Assembly (NCBI RefSeq): GCF_000297055.2
Contig: NC_022357.1
Location: 248,001-312,000, forward strand
Reading direction: 5' to 3'
Length of the DNA stretch: 64,000 nucleotides
From: Sulfuricella denitrificans skB26
GTDB taxonomy: Bacteria; Pseudomonadota; Gammaproteobacteria; Burkholderiales; Sulfuricellaceae
Shown here one piece after another: positions 21,973 through 33,758 of the stretch (within the stretch, counting starts at the first letter, position 1; the number at the start of each line of letters is the position of its first letter). Under the pieces are notes generated by a model that searched no databases, had not been told where the DNA came from, and was given only the letters and a program-made list of their open reading frames with translations. The position numbers and the translations under genes are program-made.

Positions 21973-22953
21973 ATGGGTTGGAACGACCATATAGACGACA
22001 GTGAACTTGGCAATCTTCCGCCAGAGGCATTCAGTCCATTTAATGTTGATGAGCCATTTGACCCTCAAGATCATTGGCTCGAGACAGCAGATGAAGAAGA
22101 GCAACGAATTGCGATGCGAGAATGGTTTTTGGCACGCTTCTGTGACCCAGCTATCGAGACTCCCTACAACGGTCGCGAGGGAGGATATCTTTTCATTAAC
22201 GGAGGGCCTTATGACCCTGATGATGAGATATCTCACCGTTTTGCCGGTATTGTTGACGACGATGTTATTCAGGAGGTCGTCCACGATTTATATACTGAGG
22301 TTGGTAACCAATGGGCTCCAATTCGCGATGATTTTCCCAGTGATTTCGATTTCGATGAGCGGTTTGATCTTCAACTTCTGACCAGCAATGAACCGTTGGA
22401 CAAGCTCAAGGCACGCTTGCAGCATGCCCGACTAGTTCTCACCCTTGAAGGGGATGAGGTTGCAAAGTCACTTGCTGAAAAGCTGGTCTTCGGTGGAACG
22501 GTCGCGGCTCTGGAGGCTTTCCTATGGGAGACGGTAGATTACTGGGTTGAGCATGACGAAAGGGCTCTACACGATATCGTGACGCGAATCCCAGCGCTGA
22601 AAGACCAACCGATGAAGCTTGGTGACATCTTCAAGCAACATGCCGGCCTAAAGGAGCACGTTAAGGGTTACTTACAAAATCTCGTCTGGCATCGCTGGGA
22701 TAGAGTTGCACCGCTACTCAAAACCGGACTCGGCATAGAGCCCCCCAGTTTCAAGCAATTTGAGGAAGCACTCGTCAAACGCCATCATATTGTTCATCGA
22801 AGCGGCCATGACAAGACTGGGAATCCAATCTCGGTAACGAAGGAAGAAATAGGTTCACTGTGCGATATGATTGAAGCATTCGCCACTGAAATCCATGCCA
22901 AGCTGGCACCGCGAGGCCTTCCATTGAATGAGAATAATACTGGAGAGTTTTGA
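21973..22953 (+). CDS. HEPN-domain protein (predicted ribonuclease-like)
   Basis: A 326-residue protein. The C-terminal part has a HEPN-type active-site motif, Arg270-x4-His275, in KRHHIVHRSGH, preceded by helices that include GGTVAALEAFLWETVDYW; this resembles MAE_28990/RiboL-PSP-type HEPN domains. The acidic N-terminal 140 residues (FINGGPYDPDDEISHRF...) are not recognised. HEPN proteins are often RNases in toxin-antitoxin or abortive-infection systems. No obvious antitoxin gene (for example a nucleotidyltransferase) is next to it. The start is set by AGGAG seven bases upstream. Confidence 0.7.
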   Translation: MGWNDHIDDSELGNLPPEAFSPFNVDEPFDPQDHWLETADEEEQRIAMREWFLARFCDPAIETPYNGREGGYLFINGGPYDPDDEISHRFAGIVDDDVIQEVVHDLYTEVGNQWAPIRDDFPSDFDFDERFDLQLLTSNEPLDKLKARLQHARLVLTLEGDEVAKSLAEKLVFGGTVAALEAFLWETVDYWVEHDERALHDIVTRIPALKDQPMKLGDIFKQHAGLKEHVKGYLQNLVWHRWDRVAPLLKTGLGIEPPSFKQFEEALVKRHHIVHRSGHDKTGNPISVTKEEIGSLCDMIEAFATEIHAKLAPRGLPLNENNTGEF

Positions 22954-25775: not shown

Positions 25776-28250
25776 CTATTTGGCACCTTGAGCAACGGTA
25801 CATAGCCTGACAATCTCAGCAGCGGACAACTTGTGGTGCTGAAGCTGCTTCTCCACTTCTTTTGCGCCCCTAAAACCTCCGGAAGTGGTTAACGACACCG
25901 AATAGGCGCGAACCGCATCTCGCAGTTTCTTAAGACCTGGGCCATTCACGATCCGTATGTCCGCGTGCGGCGAAGCGGCGAACTCGAAGACTGTTTTTGG
26001 GTGAACCATGATGGGCGTCATAGAGCACGTCTTGTCGTATTTCTCGCTGAACCAGACTATCGACCCGTTTAGCTGATTGGTGTCGGCTTTCGAGACCCTG
26101 TCGGCCAACACTGCCCCACTCTTGCACTCTATCACCAGGTACTTAAGTCCTCCGAGCGCCCAGAGATTGTCCGGGCCGCGGCCAACCTTGTCTTCCGGTC
26201 GCTGCGATCCAAATCCCAGGAACTGGCCCAAGTCCAGCATAGCGGCTTCGAAACGCTTACTGCCTTCTTCTCCCCAGTCTAGGTCGTCGAGCAAACCATT
26301 CACCCAGATAATGAGATCATTGCCTTCGAGGAATCTGTCCATGAAGCGGACGGCTGCCGCAGCTTGGCCGGCGACCGGCGCACTTAGCTTGTTATAGGTG
26401 GCACCGGTGATGGGCTTTAGTAGGCGCGAGTTATGGCTCACGGCAGCCAATTGTAATTCCTGCGCGTTCGCAGGGTTTATGAAGTTGGTGTATTCGGCAA
26501 GTTGCTGCTTTAGGTAGCCCTTGACTTTAGCCTCCGTCGTTCCATTCACCGCTTCCTGCGCCTTGTCGATGGCGATGTCGTACCTGCCGATGCGGACGGC
26601 ATCGAATGCCTCCCGAAGTTTCACTTGATTCTCGTCGAGATTACCGCCATTGATCGGCGGCGCATTCACTACGGCGTTTCGGCCAGCCTGGGTCCAGTCG
26701 TCGTCCTGCTTTAGGCACAGGTTTAGAATCGGTTTCAGTTCTTCGAGGGGCTTGCCACGGACCTGGGCTGCGACCGCCTTTCCAAGAGCGATCTGAGCGC
26801 GGGTTGCCGACGAGAACATTTCCTCCGCTTCCGGCTGATGCAGTCTTTGGGTCAACTTTCCGCCGAGCAGCAGCACTACGCAGTGGTCGTCGCTTGATCG
26901 AACACCGCGGCCCATGCCTTGCTCGATTCGTTGAACCTGGCGAACCAACTGTCTCTTGGTCCCGTCGAGAAGGAGCATCTCGAGACGCTCGCCCAAACCG
27001 TATACTTCCGGAAGGCCATCTATGACGAGCAGCTCGCATGCTGCTCCTGGGAGGTCGATGCCATCGTACTTGTTTATCAGTACGGTCAGGCCAACGTGCC
27101 CGGCCTTTAGGCGATCGACTCCCTTGTGGATGTTGTCCTTGTTCAAGACACTTTCGGCAACATCTTTCCAGAAGTCGGCTCGCTGGTTCGACGGTACGAT
27201 GACCACCACGTTTAGTTCTTTTGCGATGCCGGATACCAGTGCCTTGATCTCCTCGACCGTGAAGTCGGGGTTGATCTCCTGCGGCGCGAGGATCATTCGA
27301 TCCCCTATGTCCCCGCCACCTTTTGGCCTAATGGGCTGCGCGACCTCGGCGGCATCGGCCTGGAAATGACTGACCAGAATCGTGTCGTCAGCTAGAGTCG
27401 CCGTCATGTAAATGCGCCTTTGCGCGGAAGCAAAGGCCGGGATGCGGTCGATGGGGACAAAGCGCGGGGCGATCTCAAGCCGACCGCCCCCGAACAGGCA
27501 GGCACACTGTGGGATGCACTCATTCAGCAACGGCCAGTTCCACTCAAGCTCATTAGTGTTCCTTTGGGCGTGCAGGAGACGGACGACATCGTCCTGGTGA
27601 GCCTGCCAGGCCCAGTACGGCACGGCCATGACGACACTGGGATCCTCAGCCTTGACATCGAGCAGACCGGCCGGCGATTGCGCTTTCAGATCCTCCTCGA
27701 AGAGCGCCAACAGCCCGTCGTAGACCGGACTCCCTGCCGTGGACTTTATACAGAATTGGTCGTGCACGACCCCTAGGCAAGCGTGGGCATCGTCGATCAC
27801 GATGCAGCCTATCGGAATCTTCCTCTCGCCGACTCCGAACACCGAACGGCCGTTGAAGAGTTTGTGGACGTTAGCCACCAAGATGGAGCGACCGGCTATG
27901 AAGTCCGGATCCTTCTCGTCACCGGTTACGGCGATCCCCAGCGCTTTGGCTTCCGCGAGCACTTGCACCACCAAGAAGGGGTCAGGGGTTATGTAGACGG
28001 CGGGCTTGACGTTTTCGTTGAGCGAACCCTGAAGGCAGAGCAGACCAACCACGGTCTTGCCGCCACCGGTGTTCATCTTAATGGTCAAATCCCTTGCGGT
28101 CCTGCGTGCGTACCACGCGTCTAGAACATCCGCTTGTTCATCAAGGGGACGCTTGAAGCGCGCATCGCGCTTCAAAGTAGTGAATATCTTTCGCGGATCC
28201 GTTTGTTTCGCAGCTGTTCCCGCATTCAGCTTTCCGAAATCCAAAGCCAT
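25776..28250 (-). CDS. DEAD/DEAH-box helicase with C-terminal nuclease-like domain
   Basis: An 824-residue superfamily 2 helicase. Walker A is NTGGGKT (about residues 60-66) and the DExH box is IVIDDAHACLG (near 150). The second RecA domain contains VVIVPSNQRADFW and the arginine-finger region QRIEQGMGRGVRS. Near residue 700 the sequence GRGPDNLWALGGLKYLVIECK fits a PD-(D/E)xK nuclease (Asp, then Glu-x-Lys), so it is probably a helicase-nuclease. The ATG is preceded by a strong ribosome binding site (AGGAGGGG). It converges on the Mrr-like gene and is probably an antiphage component (inference). Confidence 0.85.
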   Translation of the reverse strand: MALDFGKLNAGTAAKQTDPRKIFTTLKRDARFKRPLDEQADVLDAWYARRTARDLTIKMNTGGGKTVVGLLCLQGSLNENVKPAVYITPDPFLVVQVLAEAKALGIAVTGDEKDPDFIAGRSILVANVHKLFNGRSVFGVGERKIPIGCIVIDDAHACLGVVHDQFCIKSTAGSPVYDGLLALFEEDLKAQSPAGLLDVKAEDPSVVMAVPYWAWQAHQDDVVRLLHAQRNTNELEWNWPLLNECIPQCACLFGGGRLEIAPRFVPIDRIPAFASAQRRIYMTATLADDTILVSHFQADAAEVAQPIRPKGGGDIGDRMILAPQEINPDFTVEEIKALVSGIAKELNVVVIVPSNQRADFWKDVAESVLNKDNIHKGVDRLKAGHVGLTVLINKYDGIDLPGAACELLVIDGLPEVYGLGERLEMLLLDGTKRQLVRQVQRIEQGMGRGVRSSDDHCVVLLLGGKLTQRLHQPEAEEMFSSATRAQIALGKAVAAQVRGKPLEELKPILNLCLKQDDDWTQAGRNAVVNAPPINGGNLDENQVKLREAFDAVRIGRYDIAIDKAQEAVNGTTEAKVKGYLKQQLAEYTNFINPANAQELQLAAVSHNSRLLKPITGATYNKLSAPVAGQAAAAVRFMDRFLEGNDLIIWVNGLLDDLDWGEEGSKRFEAAMLDLGQFLGFGSQRPEDKVGRGPDNLWALGGLKYLVIECKSGAVLADRVSKADTNQLNGSIVWFSEKYDKTCSMTPIMVHPKTVFEFAASPHADIRIVNGPGLKKLRDAVRAYSVSLTTSGGFRGAKEVEKQLQHHKLSAAEIVRLCTVAQGAK

Positions 28251-29059: not shown

Positions 29060-29422
29060 ATGATACGCAAACTTGTAAGTGCCTTAGCACAATTCTTTGG
29101 CTTTGCTCAAAAACCCAGAAATCCACTCGAACAGAAATTTAAACTCCTGGAATTTAATGACCGAGCCTCAGCCACATCAGCAGCACGCCAACAGGGTGTT
29201 GCTGCAATCATTCGCGGAGGGAAAACCAATAAATGGCTCCTCTTTACCTGTCCTTGTGGATGTAATCAGCAAATCGCGCTAAACCTCATGCAGAGTCACA
29301 AACCTCACTGGTCGATAGAAATACGCACACCCACCTCATTTTCTGTTCATCCATCCGTTGACGCTATGCAGTGCGGTGCCCATTTCTGGATTCGTGATGG
29401 AAGCGTTATTTGGTGTGAGTAG
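29060..29422 (+). CDS. DUF6527 protein of ubiquitin-like conjugation loci
   Basis: About 120 residues from the ATG at 29060 (a TTG at 29051 is also in frame). The DUF6527 pattern is clear: WLLFTCPCGCNQQIALNL, then HPSVDAMQCGAHFWIRDGSVIW. The cysteines CxCxC and the later C-x2-H look like metal ligands, or could include catalytic residues. This family accompanies bacterial Ubl/E2/E1-JAB operons. Here it is on the opposite strand from those genes and overlaps the 3' end of the JAB-E1 gene by 17 bases, an unusual arrangement. Confidence 0.8.
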   Translation: MIRKLVSALAQFFGFAQKPRNPLEQKFKLLEFNDRASATSAARQQGVAAIIRGGKTNKWLLFTCPCGCNQQIALNLMQSHKPHWSIEIRTPTSFSVHPSVDAMQCGAHFWIRDGSVIWCE

Positions 29423-30773
29423 CCCAGACCATATCAAGGTACGGCTGTACATCTCCACGTCCCCACATTGTATGATCGCCACAAAAACAGCCGTCTCTTG
29501 GCTCGATACGATTGGTCCGAATGCGCGACTGGTCAAACGCTAAAAGCACTTCAGAAGATTGACGCTCTTCCCCCATAAATCCGGTTAGACGATGCAGTAA
29601 TTCAGAGATGGCTGCGCTGGCAGTTGCGCTAGTAAAAGCAATTACAGCTGGTGCCGGCTCATCAAGCTCTGGTGCATAACCATCACGGATTTGGTTGCGT
29701 CGATCTTCATCAGAAAGAGTTTCGACTCGAATAGCTTCAGCCGATATCCGCCCACGGCAGAAAAGACAAGCTTCTCCAGAAATCAAAGTTGTCACGCGAC
29801 CATATACACTTGTAATGGCTCCATGTTGTGAACTTATCAATACGCCTAAATCTATTACGGGAATATTGTAATGCATTGCTAATTGAGTAAGAATCGAACG
29901 TGGCAATTCATTGTCTGTACAACCAAATACAACGTCGCAATCTCGAATGGATTCAGCCGTGTTTTTGTCAGTTATGTGTTTAGGAAAGACGTCTATGATG
30001 GTTTTTAAACCGATACTATCGAGGTGCCTTTTAATTATTTCAACCTTGAACTGCCCGGCATCATCAACCTTAGACCCATAAACACGATTGACGTTAGTTG
30101 CATCCAATACATCCCCATCAAACAATGAAAGACGCCCAACCCCAAGGCGGCATAATTGTTCGGCCACTGGCGAACCAGTCCCACCCAATCCAACAATGCC
30201 GATATGTAAATTGGAAAGTATTTTCTGAATATCTTGGCCAAATGCTCTAACTTGACGATCAAAGATAGCAGTAATTTCGTTTTCTGGATTCTTAGACCAA
30301 CTACGAATTCGAGCCCCCACTTCTAAAATGACATCTGCTGGTTCTTGGTGCGGAAGATATAATCGTCCACGAATATCATTCTCTGTTAGAACCAATGTGC
30401 CATGCACCCTGTCGGGGACGCGTTTCTGTAAGAAAGGCAGAAGCTTCAGTTCTTCACCATCATCTTGATCGGAAAAGTCAGCAAAACCTTCTGGATGTGA
30501 GTGAGCAAAGATAATGCTGAGGTTCTCAATCTTGGCTTGCTTAGTTATCCGTACCAAAGCGCTAGATGAAATGCTTAAGCCATAAGCTTCACGGTAAAGG
30601 AAATCCTCCTCAGCTATCGGCATGATGACATGCGCAATAAGTTTTGTTGCGCGTTCAGTCTGAGATTGCCCACACAGCAAAAATGCCGCCCCCTCCACTC
30701 CCATACGATCAAAAAGCAGTTTTCGCAATAAAGCCATTTGCGGTTCTAGCAATACTATTCTTGTGTCTCTCAT
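29406..30773 (-). CDS. JAB-peptidase/ThiF E1-like fusion enzyme
   Basis: A 455-residue two-domain protein. The N-terminal domain (1-145) is a JAB/JAMM metallopeptidase with Glu27, His91-x-His93 and Ser101-x2-Asp104 all present, so it should be active in removing or maturing a ubiquitin-like protein. The E1/ThiF domain follows, with the nucleotide-binding GxGGxG at residues 195-200 (GIVGLGGTGSPV), the arginine-containing NVNRVY segment and a CLFC pair near 330. It would adenylate the C-terminus of the Ubl encoded upstream. The start overlaps the E2 stop (ATGA), so the genes are translationally coupled. Confidence 0.9.
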   Translation of the reverse strand: MRDTRIVLLEPQMALLRKLLFDRMGVEGAAFLLCGQSQTERATKLIAHVIMPIAEEDFLYREAYGLSISSSALVRITKQAKIENLSIIFAHSHPEGFADFSDQDDGEELKLLPFLQKRVPDRVHGTLVLTENDIRGRLYLPHQEPADVILEVGARIRSWSKNPENEITAIFDRQVRAFGQDIQKILSNLHIGIVGLGGTGSPVAEQLCRLGVGRLSLFDGDVLDATNVNRVYGSKVDDAGQFKVEIIKRHLDSIGLKTIIDVFPKHITDKNTAESIRDCDVVFGCTDNELPRSILTQLAMHYNIPVIDLGVLISSQHGAITSVYGRVTTLISGEACLFCRGRISAEAIRVETLSDEDRRNQIRDGYAPELDEPAPAVIAFTSATASAAISELLHRLTGFMGEERQSSEVLLAFDQSRIRTNRIEPRDGCFCGDHTMWGRGDVQPYLDMVWATHTK

Positions 30774-31159
30774 ACCTTCCCCACCCCTTGAAGTTCTCTT
30801 TGAATCAGAGCGAAGAATGTCCTAAGACAATCGACGCCCGGTTGCCAATTCCCATTCAAATGTCGTGAAAACCGTTGCCATGAGCGTCCCAAGTGCGATT
30901 CCATTACTTCAGTAGCCTGCGCAAACTGCCCTGTTGTAGTCAGTCTAATTGGCGGATCGCAATACCACATGTCCAACGGTGACATCGGGTATTGAGGTGG
31001 AATTCTAATCATCAGATCAATCATCGATGGAGTGAACCCCCCAGCCGTAACGTCAAATTCCTTAATTAAGAGGCAAACAGCACCCTGCGGATCAGGTACT
31101 ACCTCCCATTTGAACTCTCGTTCACTGAGGAATTTCACGTCACGGACTGGCAGATTCAT
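30770..31159 (-). CDS. Bacterial E2-like protein (Prok-E2_E type)
   Basis: A 129-residue protein of the bacterial E2 family found in ubiquitin-like operons. Landmarks are PPQYPMSPLDMWYCDPPIRL, the HLGRSWQRFSRHL segment and NWQPGVDCLRTFFALIQREL. Two cysteines, in WYCDPP and GVDCLR, are candidates for the conjugating residue; I cannot tell from sequence alone which, if either, is used. Its ribosome binding site AGGAGG lies within the last codons of the Ubl gene, one base upstream of it. It would pass the activated Ubl to targets. Confidence 0.85.
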   Translation of the reverse strand: MNLPVRDVKFLSEREFKWEVVPDPQGAVCLLIKEFDVTAGGFTPSMIDLMIRIPPQYPMSPLDMWYCDPPIRLTTTGQFAQATEVMESHLGRSWQRFSRHLNGNWQPGVDCLRTFFALIQRELQGVGKV

Positions 31160-31160
31160 T

Positions 31161-31424
31161 TCACATGCCTCCTGGATTAATCGTGCTTGGCGCCGTATAA
31201 AAATCAGATCCTGACTTCACATCGTAATTGGACTCGGGGCGAATAAGTATGTCGTCCTTTGGTCCATGCACATCAAGCCAAAGATCACGATCACCCGGCA
31301 CTGGTACGAGTGCGCGAAGCTCTGCACCTGTAGCTTCGTTACTTGGCAATACGTATTGCACCTCATCAATTTTGATGTGGACGGCATGTTTTTGCTGCTT
31401 TGATTCATGGACAGAAGTGTTCAT
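31161..31424 (-). CDS. Ubiquitin-like protein (multiubiquitin family)
   Basis: An 87-residue protein with a single beta-grasp domain of the Multi_ubiq type (VHIKIDEVQYVLPSNEATGAELRAL, then DLWLDVHGPKDDILI). The tail is INPGGM, so a Gly-Gly pair is followed by just one methionine; trimming of that residue by the JAB domain would expose a diglycine end as in ubiquitin (inference). Part of that codon string is also the Shine-Dalgarno sequence of the E2 gene, which could explain the glycines. It is the first gene of the Ubl-E2-E1 operon. Confidence 0.87.
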   Translation of the reverse strand: MNTSVHESKQQKHAVHIKIDEVQYVLPSNEATGAELRALVPVPGDRDLWLDVHGPKDDILIRPESNYDVKSGSDFYTAPSTINPGGM

Positions 31425-31543
31425 TTTTTGCTCCTTATTATGGCTGGTGAATTTATATTAGCCAACAATTAGCTAAATAGCAAGCAAATTTAATTGTAAT
31501 TATTAGCTAGTTAGTCTATAGTTTAGAAAAAGGAGATGGCAAA

Positions 31544-31756
31544 GTGACTGTAAAAAAGACAATGACCCTTAATCTAACTGAAGCAGAGATGACTGCGTTG
31601 GAGGAGTTGTGTATTGAAAAAGACATGAGCAAAACAGCCGTTCTCCGACAAGCTTTACGTTTGTATCAGTTAATTAATAACAGGAAAAATTTAGGTGATA
31701 AGCTGTTCTTAGAGAATGACACCATCAAAGAAAAGAAGGAGCTTGTCGTTTTGTGA
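31544..31756 (+). CDS. Ribbon-helix-helix (CopG-like) regulator or antitoxin
   Basis: A 70-residue protein whose N-terminal half is a ribbon-helix-helix DNA-binding fold (KKTMTLNLTEAEMTALEELC, then EKDMSKTAVLRQALRLYQLI). The GTG at 31544 is preceded by AAAGGAG at a good distance; an in-frame ATG is not available. Its last bases overlap the GNAT gene start (GTGA), the layout of a RHH antitoxin with a GNAT toxin. It heads a four-gene operon. Confidence 0.82.
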   Translation: MTVKKTMTLNLTEAEMTALEELCIEKDMSKTAVLRQALRLYQLINNRKNLGDKLFLENDTIKEKKELVVL

Positions 31757-32352
31757 AAACCACCCTTAATGTTCCGTTATTCAACCCTGCTCAGGGTATA
31801 TACGTTGAAGCCTCACTTCACGAGCGTATCGATGCTGGCTTTGCTCGCCGTGCTGACGAATTATGGAAAGCACATATAAAGGAAATTATCTTGTCCGGAC
31901 GCACTCTGGAAAAGATGGAACACGACCACTGGAAATGGGAAAGCAAGGTGGCTAACTCTGCTAACCTGCTCTCTTGCCCAACGTTTGCTATTGAATATAA
32001 TAATGAACCCCAGGGCTTAATGCTGTTAACTACGGATGGTTATTTTTCTCGATTGGACAGCCAAAAAGGAACACCATTGGTGTACGTAACTTATCTTGCT
32101 TGCGCACCTTGGAACGATAGAAATATTGCAGAGACTCGTAGATTCAAGGGTGTTGGAACTATTTTGATGCGAGCCGCTATTGAAACTAGCATTGACATCG
32201 GTTTTAAGGGAAGAATTGGGCTACATTCACTTCCGCAATCTGAAGAATTCTATGAAAATTGTGGACTTGATTTCCAAGGTATTGATGCAAGCGTGGGGAA
32301 TTTGAAATATTTTGAACTCAGCCAGAAGGCTGCAACTGAGTTTTTGAGATAG
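31753..32352 (+). CDS. GNAT-family acetyltransferase
   Basis: A 199-residue GNAT-like protein. The acetyl-CoA-binding motif A is seen in RRFKGVGTILMRAAIETSIDIGF (about residues 135-157), followed by IGLHSLPQSEEFYENCGL, the typical strand and helix ending in Y-x-x-x-G. The N-terminal 60 residues are extra. Overlap with the RHH gene recalls TacAT-type toxin-antitoxin pairs, but size and the additional downstream genes differ, so a toxin role is only a possibility. Confidence 0.78.
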   Translation: MKTTLNVPLFNPAQGIYVEASLHERIDAGFARRADELWKAHIKEIILSGRTLEKMEHDHWKWESKVANSANLLSCPTFAIEYNNEPQGLMLLTTDGYFSRLDSQKGTPLVYVTYLACAPWNDRNIAETRRFKGVGTILMRAAIETSIDIGFKGRIGLHSLPQSEEFYENCGLDFQGIDASVGNLKYFELSQKAATEFLR

Positions 32353-32361
32353 GAGAGTGCC

Positions 32362-32856
32362 ATGAAATTTGAGATCACTCAGGAATGGCTCGCAAAAAGA
32401 CTTGCACACTGCGAGGAGGATGGCATTGCAGCTGGAGGTATTCATCTTGAAGATTTCAAGAAAGATATTGAGCGAAGAACTGTAACACCATCTGTGCTTC
32501 AAAATGTACCAACCCAACTTGGCAAGGTAGTACGTTACGTTCGAGAACAGAAGGGATGGACAAGAGCTGAAATGGCTGAACTTGCGGACATAGATGAATC
32601 AGACTTGGTGTCTATCGAAACACTATCCAGCTATGACCCAAGGCCAAGAACAGTAATACAGCTTGCTGAAGTGTGCCGTTTCAAACGAAATGAATTTGTC
32701 CAGTTAGCTAATCACCGTACCATGGTTGCAGCCAACGACAATTCTGTCAGATTTGCTGCCAGCTCCAATGGAACAGAATCAATTAGTGATGAAGAATATG
32801 ATGCGATTCGAGCACTAATCCAAGCACTGGCTCAATCAACATCTAAAACGCAGTGA
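32362..32856 (+). CDS. XRE-family helix-turn-helix protein
   Basis: A 164-residue protein with a central HTH (LGKVVRYVREQKGWTRAEM, then AELADIDESDLVSIETL, about residues 53-88) and an N-terminal extension of 45 residues. It overlaps the next gene by four bases (GTGA). An XRE protein directly followed by an ImmA/IrrE-like peptidase is a common regulatory or toxin-antitoxin-like pair, in which the peptidase cleaves the regulator. Confidence 0.82.
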   Translation: MKFEITQEWLAKRLAHCEEDGIAAGGIHLEDFKKDIERRTVTPSVLQNVPTQLGKVVRYVREQKGWTRAEMAELADIDESDLVSIETLSSYDPRPRTVIQLAEVCRFKRNEFVQLANHRTMVAANDNSVRFAASSNGTESISDEEYDAIRALIQALAQSTSKTQ

Positions 32857-33758
32857 AAAATATCCATCTCGACAAGAGAACAGCCAAGGATATTGATCAG
32901 CATATAGACAGGGTGCATCGTGACTTGGGCTATACAGATGGCATGATTATGTTGCCACAGGTGCGTGAGTTGTTGCGATTAGACTTGCACTACTACCAAC
33001 TTGATGATCCAAAGCTTCTTGATGAAGTGGTTCACAAACTCAGGGTTGGTGCTAAGCAAGTAATCAATCGCCCAGGCTTGTTGTTGGACGCGGTGCGCAA
33101 GTTTGACCTGAATGCGTTATTCATTCCAGATGGGAAGCGCATTCTCATTGACGGGAGAGTTCCCGATTTGAAGAAGCGATGGTATGAATCGCACGAAGTA
33201 GCACACAGCCTTATTCCGTGGCATGCGGAATACATGCTAGGTGATGACAAGGAAACTCTATCGCAGTCTTGCCACCAATTTATTGAGGCAGAAGCGAATT
33301 ACGGTTCTGGACGGCTTCTTTTTCCACACAATAATTTTACTGAAGCAAGACTTTCGAGTGAAATATCGATAGATCATGTTCGAAAATTAGCCAAGCACTT
33401 TGGCAACACAATTACCAGTACTCTATGGAGGTGTGTCGAACAGAGCGAGCATGCAATTTTTGCCGCCGTTGGGGAGCATCCTAAACATTATTGTGAAGGT
33501 AATTCGAAAATTGAGTACTTTGTTCGCTCAGAAAAGTTTGAACAGCAGTTTCAAAATGTATGCGAAGAGGATATTTGGGGGTGGAAACAATCTTACTGTG
33601 GATATAATAAATCTGGGCCACTGGGCTGTTCGGAAATTCAAGTGGCTGATATAGATGGCGAGCTTCAAGTGCTCCTCATGGAGAGCTTCAGCAATAGCCA
33701 CAATGTGTTGACACTAGGGTGCTGGGTGCGGCCACAGCCTATTCAAGTATTTTTTTAA
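32853..33758 (+). CDS. ImmA/IrrE-family metallopeptidase
   Basis: A 301-residue protein with the zinc-peptidase motif His114-Glu115-x-x-His118 in SHEVAHSLIPWH, and the downstream helix FIEAEANYGSGRLLFP supplying the third ligand (Glu). It is the last gene of the four-gene operon 31544-33758 and overlaps the XRE gene. In related systems such peptidases cleave the partner repressor in response to a signal. The C-terminal 120 residues form an extra domain of unknown role. Confidence 0.85.
   Translation: MKNIHLDKRTAKDIDQHIDRVHRDLGYTDGMIMLPQVRELLRLDLHYYQLDDPKLLDEVVHKLRVGAKQVINRPGLLLDAVRKFDLNALFIPDGKRILIDGRVPDLKKRWYESHEVAHSLIPWHAEYMLGDDKETLSQSCHQFIEAEANYGSGRLLFPHNNFTEARLSSEISIDHVRKLAKHFGNTITSTLWRCVEQSEHAIFAAVGEHPKHYCEGNSKIEYFVRSEKFEQQFQNVCEEDIWGWKQSYCGYNKSGPLGCSEIQVADIDGELQVLLMESFSNSHNVLTLGCWVRPQPIQVFF

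Follow-up and report, generated by a model that had tools for sequence, protein, structure and literature searches.

We found that a Bub (bacterial ubiquitination-like) operon of Sulfuricella denitrificans skB26, probably acquired horizontally, lies divergent from a composite four-gene module that probably controls it. The operon was analysed within a stretch of 64,000 nt (NC_022357.1, positions 248,001-312,000, forward strand), hereafter the window. It comprises genes for a ubiquitin-like protein (Ubl), an E2 and a fused JAB-E1 protein, adjoined at the E1 gene by a DUF6527 gene in reversed orientation, and the module encodes a ribbon-helix-helix (RHH) regulator, a GNAT-family protein, an XRE-type helix-turn-helix (HTH) protein and an M78 metallopeptidase (Table 1). 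Gene content and orientation, their recurrence in other genomes, an array of TRGCYA hexamers between the two operons and the sharing of the module with other immune systems can be read directly from the sequences. Within the literature searched, the composite controller and its array appear to be new.

The kind of cassette is settled by a sequence search of the PDB, in which the best solved-structure match of the JAB-E1 protein was Citrobacter BubCD (1.1e-43, residues 4-399) and that of the E2 was Citrobacter BubB (1.6e-8); on these matches it is a Bub operon. The Ubl gene is the first gene of the cassette, spaced from the E2 gene by 1 base, and the E2 and JAB-E1 genes overlap by 4 bases. The Ubl itself is a weak match to Multi_ubiq (18.7 bits against a cut-off of 24.5) and its sole PDB match is unrelated (E 0.74), and an iterated profile joined it to Ubl open reading frames (ORFs) in 87 loci. 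An earlier sequence-only reading of the window had taken Ubl, E2 and JAB-E1 for a ubiquitin-like conjugation operon, which is confirmed by the coordinates, Pfam and the PDB matches to Bub. The cassette would be expected to conjugate its Ubl. PMC13373217 states that anti-phage activity of Bub is not yet demonstrated.

Table 1. Features of the Bub cassette and the divergent module, in positions of the window
Feature	Position	Strand	Description
DUF6527 gene	29060-29422	+	120 aa; Pfam PF20137 5.6e-20; orientation reversed; Cys/His-rich (CPCGC ... C..H ... WC)
Tail-to-tail DUF6527/JAB-E1 overlap	29406-29422		exactly 17 bases
JAB-E1 fusion, BubCD-like	29406-30773	-	455 aa; Pfam ThiF 9.2e-39, Prok-JAB 0.0019 (under curated cut-off)
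E2, BubB-like	30770-31159	-	129 aa; Pfam Prok-E2_E 4.8e-48
Ubl	31161-31424	-	87 aa; C-terminus INPG-GM; Pfam Multi_ubiq 0.0021 (under curated cut-off)
Candidate operator array	31459-31509		TAGCCA-N5-TAGCTA at 31459-31475; third TAGCTA 34 bases after the second
RHH (CopG-like) regulator	31544-31756	+	RHH_1 6.6e-5; family profile against CopG in PDB 5e-5
GNAT-family protein	31753-32352	+	Acetyltransf_1 1.9e-4; conserved family, 14 aligned
XRE-type HTH, CapH-like	32362-32856	+	PADLOC HTH_VI 5.4e-7, capH 1e-6
M78/ImmA-IrrE metallopeptidase, CapP-like	32853-33758	+	PADLOC capP 5e-15; Peptidase_M78 0.0087 (below cut-off); HExxH H114 E115 H118

The divergent module and its hexamer array

The four module genes, which were absent from the sequence-only reading, are divergent from the Bub operon and closely packed, with 4-base overlaps at two of the three junctions, RHH/GNAT being one of these. 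At modest scores, the last two genes show the combination that characterises CapH+CapP, an HTH repressor followed by an M78 peptidase with HExxH. In the PDB the XRE family profile matched a designed protein, SinR and 7t5u, the last of which is titled helix-turn-helix protein and is presumably CapH, and the M78 family profile matched IrrE (2.6e-6) and CapP (7t5t, 3.2e-4); HExxH is invariant in 14 M78 sequences. For the GNAT family profile a PDB search up to E 0.1 yielded no match, toxins included, an absence that is not proof. Few of the sampled genomes contain this GNAT family: 3 of 274 from the window's class (window included) and 1 of 385 from another class. Identity to the window protein is 54-77% for RHH (16 module homologues), 30-52% for GNAT, 23-64% for XRE and 36-66% for M78. 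The RHH regulator is hence the most conserved protein of the module, as expected if it reads a conserved site.

All four module genes are divergent from a Bub operon in the window and in L009, L023, L024, L026, L031, L032, L053 and L125 (L026, L031 and L032 being copies in E1, or nearly), and likewise on the plasmid loci L111, L116, L118, L139, L140 and L141. In L114, L115 and L119 the module is divergent from a cyclic oligonucleotide-based antiphage signalling system (CBASS). Profiles confirm the cyclase, HORMA, TRIP13 and SAVED endonuclease of L114, and in L115 and L119 the cyclases are profile-confirmed and the remaining CBASS genes are as annotated. L138 has the module divergent from a cassette of E1-N, JAB and Metal_CEHH, and in L113 it lies upstream of a profile-confirmed Cas9 on the same strand. 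Five further loci are less clear: L117 has no annotated M78 and its restriction genes lie some distance upstream; L126 has no XRE match and faces an E1-JAB set; the GNAT of L127 is shortened; L136 has an insertion sequence element at the position of the operon and is approached from the opposite side by a convergent Bub operon; and L137 is unannotated, with a Ubl-like match opposite and only weak E1 matches. Among cyanobacterial relatives of the GNAT, no immune operon was seen in the three of many loci that were opened (L112, L142, L143).

Some loci combine or replace these parts in their own ways. L136 (5792-12082, Jiella) holds a Bub operon with its own divergent XRE-M78 pair as well as the full RHH-GNAT-XRE-M78 set converging from downstream. 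On a Methylocystis bryophila plasmid (L119, L008) the module stands beside CBASS, and a Bub operon about 10 kb away has none; at L008 (3123-4160, Methylocystis plasmid) this operon is faced instead by a DUF6290 gene, a small gene and a Fic gene. We take DUF6290 to be RHH-like.

TRGCYA hexamers occur between the RHH gene and its neighbour in all 20 regions compared, at least two in each, and in 16 of the 20 a pair of hexamers is 11 bases apart. In 22 regions, 45 of 55 hexamer pairs are spaced at multiples of 11 bases; under the null the mean is 4.7 and the maximum 16 in 5000 draws. Side-by-side RHH dimers such as those of Arc would need such one-turn phasing. In the window TRGCYA-N5-TRGCYA matches once, with 0.03 matches expected. 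Genome-wide this pair was found at 9 places, compared with 3 for the reversed pattern, and only the match in the window has TAGC in both hexamers. The strict form TAGCTA-N5-TAGCTA was found in 20 of 152 fetched loci, representing 15 distinct places, all within 133 bases of an RHH ORF. As a control we used the 100 loci with E1 relatives (E1 rows) described below, of which 5 were dropped for want of a Ubl ORF: TRGCYA-N5-TRGCYA lies upstream of Ubl in 9/9 Bub rows with RHH and GNAT matches and in 0/86 rows without them. Regarding promoters, a hexamer falls within the top promoter-like match for the divergent gene in 19 of 22 regions, and two hexamers do so in 11 of 22, counts for which no null was run.

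Several observations weigh against the array as an RHH operator of immune genes. It was first noticed in the same loci that were later counted, and some of the counted rows are copies (L026, L031 and L032 among the nine). The 11-base pair is missing in 4 of 20 regions (spacings 33 and 49 in L138, 22 in L113, 33 in L136 and 65 in L117), and in the window and L009 the third hexamer follows after 34 bases, not 33. The window has no more promoter-like matches than chance predicts (10 found, 9.7 expected), and in L113, L117 and L136 the divergent gene is no immune gene. Finally, TAGCTA is also the word bound by the four-helix protein RptR; the site is therefore not necessarily that of RHH and could be bound by XRE. 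The shared word is either a case of convergence or a warning that RHH is not the reader of the site.

Proposed circuit and the toxin-antitoxin alternative

We think it probable that the Bub operon is run by the module as a composite controller, along the following lines, each regulatory step of which we infer from gene content and homology. In the divergent promoter region that module and operon share, RHH would bind the TRGCYA hexamers, phased at roughly one per helical turn, and would thereby repress the Bub operon. The XRE-M78 pair, a relative of CapH-CapP and IrrE, would sense DNA damage, and the M78 protease would cleave a repressor, by which Bub conjugation would be switched on under attack. 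GNAT may set the state of RHH by binding or acetylating it, or may itself be a toxin held by RHH. DUF6527 would act as a core partner of Bub that need not be co-transcribed, its transcription starting instead in the region upstream of its own gene.

A different role for the first two genes is less likely: RHH and GNAT could form a type II toxin-antitoxin pair standing guard over the immune operon and killing cells which lose or silence it, with the array as the site of its autoregulation. Gene order and the 4-base overlap resemble RHH-GNAT pairs among the predicted systems in PMC2701414, which itself considered a function in antibiotic resistance the more probable one for such pairs. The GNAT further carries an RxxGxG-like motif, presumably the one typical of the family, which is degraded in L026 and L053, and its family profile has no PDB sequence match, toxins included. 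The pair also travels with XRE-M78, and the array lies in the top promoter-like match in 19/22 regions for the divergent gene but in 7/22 for the RHH gene (no null was run for either count).

With regard to its wider distribution, we lean slightly towards regarding RHH-GNAT-XRE-M78 as an undescribed four-gene immune controller that moves as one block among unrelated systems (Bub, CBASS with HORMA/TRIP13, the E1-JAB cassette and Cas9), its RHH reading an 11-base phased TAGCTA array, an operator word convergent with that of the unrelated RptR. If true, TAGCTA would look like a common address of bacterial immune promoters. For the question of how cells silence costly immune operons and turn them on when needed, the module and its candidate operator would offer a testable circuit. 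Phased TRGCYA beside RHH-GNAT-XRE-M78 could also serve as a sequence tag for new immune operons.

Cassette and module were probably acquired together, as both lie within one stretch of low GC content (0.42-0.45 at 29-33.5 kb, compared with 0.52-0.58 at 23-28.5 kb and 0.53-0.59 at 34-39.5 kb). A second low-GC stretch (0.45-0.49) is found at 19-22.5 kb, and a weak HEPN-like match (0.00054, below cut-off) at 21973-22953. The gene at 25776-28250 on the minus strand is helicase-like, matches the PADLOC candidate PDC-S28 over its full length and apparently differs in origin from the Bub stretch. We rejected it as part of the system, with a GC content of 0.571 compared with 0.446 for JAB-E1 and a profile that, among the sources searched, matched only the window and two copies of it.

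Carriage by viruses was also rejected. No relatives came up when viral contigs were scanned twice for E1, nor did the window GNAT match any phage record. Scanned with the GNAT profile, viral contigs yielded 8 distant loci; in the 7 that were searched with the module profiles there was no RHH match, and L131 gave a weak XRE match. In two viral loci (L128, 6353-7896; L132, 7602-9139) a distant GNAT relative is directly followed by an M78-like ORF, without an RHH match.

Orientation of DUF6527 and features of the cassette proteins

E1 relatives were pooled from genome contigs (80 kept of 104 confirmed), whole genomes and two plasmids. Ten loci were removed as copies of others (L004 being the copy of L094), nine of them confirmed letter for letter over the middle part, giving a final set of 100 E1 rows, 95 of which are distinct in the columns kept. 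A DUF6527 gene is nearby in 92 rows, the other 8 having none within 2 kb. Such adjacency is usual in the collected rows, and we know of no published Bub criterion of that kind. Where DUF6527 is adjacent, it lies on the E1 strand in 86/92 rows, which bears out the statement of the sequence-only reading that it is usually in line, and it is reversed in 6/92: in the window, Thiobacillus L009 (72% identical), Chthonomonadaceae L010 (53%), Daviesbacteria L014 (49%) and the near-identical Paenibacillus pair L020 and L021 (36-37% identical to the window). Plasmids were surveyed by eye among the rows listed, 60 of 109 records in one search and 60 of 63 in another. Of 37 records common to both, 36 (many of them near copies) carry E2 and DUF6527 on the same strand within about 3 kb, and CP064191, with the two matches 27 kb apart, is uninformative. 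The window genome itself carries a second Ubl-E2-JAB-E1-DUF6527 cluster with DUF6527 in line (C1, about 137359-139018; L004, L094), and in Sideroxydans two adjacent DUF6527 ORFs lie away from the E1 gene (L083, 8766-10025).

All six reversed rows fall within the 16 E1 rows nearest the window, the other 10 being in line. The sequence-only reading would be refuted by many close homologues with the same orientation, and this is partly the case: of the other 15 nearest rows 5 are reversed as well, among them the closest row (72%), and 10 are in line. On the tree of E1 rows the orientation label requires three changes, and a single origin of the reversal is rejected (p 8e-5 on a 26-row tree; p 0.006 without Paenibacillus). 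The DUF6527 tree also requires three changes and groups the loci much like the E1 tree, for which reason DUF6527 seems to have flipped where it stands, not to have been exchanged for another copy. Five of the reversed loci were examined for the space between the DUF6527 start and the next gene or kept ORF, which is smallest in L014 (107 bases) and largest in the window (809 bases). The start called at 29060 agrees with the Thiobacillus homologue, in which the corresponding residue also has a start codon. We conclude that DUF6527 is most plausibly a regular, core partner of Bub that tolerates separate transcription and forms a separable unit. The repeated reversal suggests that this uncharacterised partner works without co-transcription with the conjugation enzymes.

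Against this stand a number of points. The 16 nearest rows form two branches (7 and 9 rows) that are not shown to be one clade, the three changes are compatible with one gain and two losses, and the well-supported branches alone require just two changes. The short DUF6527 alignment does not reject the six as one clade (p 0.23). In L010 the ORF upstream of DUF6527 shares its strand, so that co-transcription is possible there. The module was moreover seen in just two of the six reversed loci, and hence it does not explain the reversal.

The convergence of DUF6527 with the E1 gene and their 17-base overlap had been described correctly by the sequence-only reading. Its further proposal, that this antisense overlap balances expression, is improbable on our data. 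In that explanation interfering convergent transcripts would set the ratio of JAB-E1 to DUF6527, which would suit the close convergence of the two genes in all six reversed loci and a tail-to-tail overlap in the window at which no terminator-like site was found. The junction measures 17 bases in the window and L009, 4 in L010 and L014, and is a 1-base gap in L020 and L021, and therefore the length of the overlap is not evidently under selection; the 10 in-line rows among the 15 nearest manage without it. An invertible switch that contains DUF6527 and flips it on and off is very improbable and was rejected: orientation did change more than once among the nearest relatives and some loci have short inverted repeats (window 13 bases, 85%; L014 22 bases, 77%), but these are imperfect and differ between the window, L009, L010, L014 and L020 (no null was run; recombinase profiles were outside the search).

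Regarding the proteins themselves, a PDB sequence search with DUF6527 up to E 1 gave no match. Its C64 and H108 (domain positions C18 and H62) are each conserved in 91 of 92 aligned homologues, window copies included, and the Cys/His pattern suggests a metal-binding fold. In the JAB domain the residues E27, H91, H93, S101 and D104, which we take to be the JAMM motif, are invariant in all seven aligned sequences (window included). In the window's relatives several Ubl proteins end in Asn-Pro-Gly with a short variable tail, and many others in TEG, either as the last residues or followed by a tail; trimming of the tail by the JAB domain would lead one to expect this. Members of the E2 family share a WQRWSRH motif with Ser in 87/89 and His in 86/89 sequences (copies included) and no conserved cysteine, no column of the alignment exceeding 16/89 Cys. 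Since the Ser/His motif is conserved and a cysteine is not, this points to a chemistry differing from that of cysteine E2 enzymes; Bub reportedly proceeds by oxyester rather than thioester steps.

Comparison with known systems

The cassette resembles Bub of Citrobacter in its E2 and JAB-E1 relatives preceded by a Ubl gene, and differs from it in the reversed DUF6527 gene and the weak Multi_ubiq match. RHH-GNAT toxin-antitoxin pairs share the gene order and the overlap with the first half of the module, from which they differ in that the window GNAT family has no PDB match and is linked to XRE-M78 and immune operons.

The likeness to CapH+CapP lies in the XRE-M78 pair adjoining an immune operon. 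According to PMC13373217, CapW or CapH+CapP is present in 219 of 544 Bub operons, and single-stranded DNA activates the CapP protease, which cleaves the repressor. As far as CapH+CapP is described there, the window adds the preceding RHH and GNAT genes, the divergent arrangement and the 11-base phased array, and the paper has no mention of GNAT, acetyltransferase, RHH or ribbon-helix-helix. Neither the RHH-GNAT addition nor the array was met in the accessible parts of PMC12255303, PMC9122588 and PMC2701414, or reported elsewhere in the literature searched, which lay outside preprints and most subscription papers. The closest parallel to the array is RptR of E. coli, a helical repressor of a restriction island that binds repeated TAGCTA in its promoter (PMC12255303), the likeness being the repeated TAGCTA in the promoter region of defence genes. 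RptR is there described as a four-helix 9-kDa protein encoded by the first gene of a type I restriction island, in contrast to the regulator of the window, which is an RHH protein.

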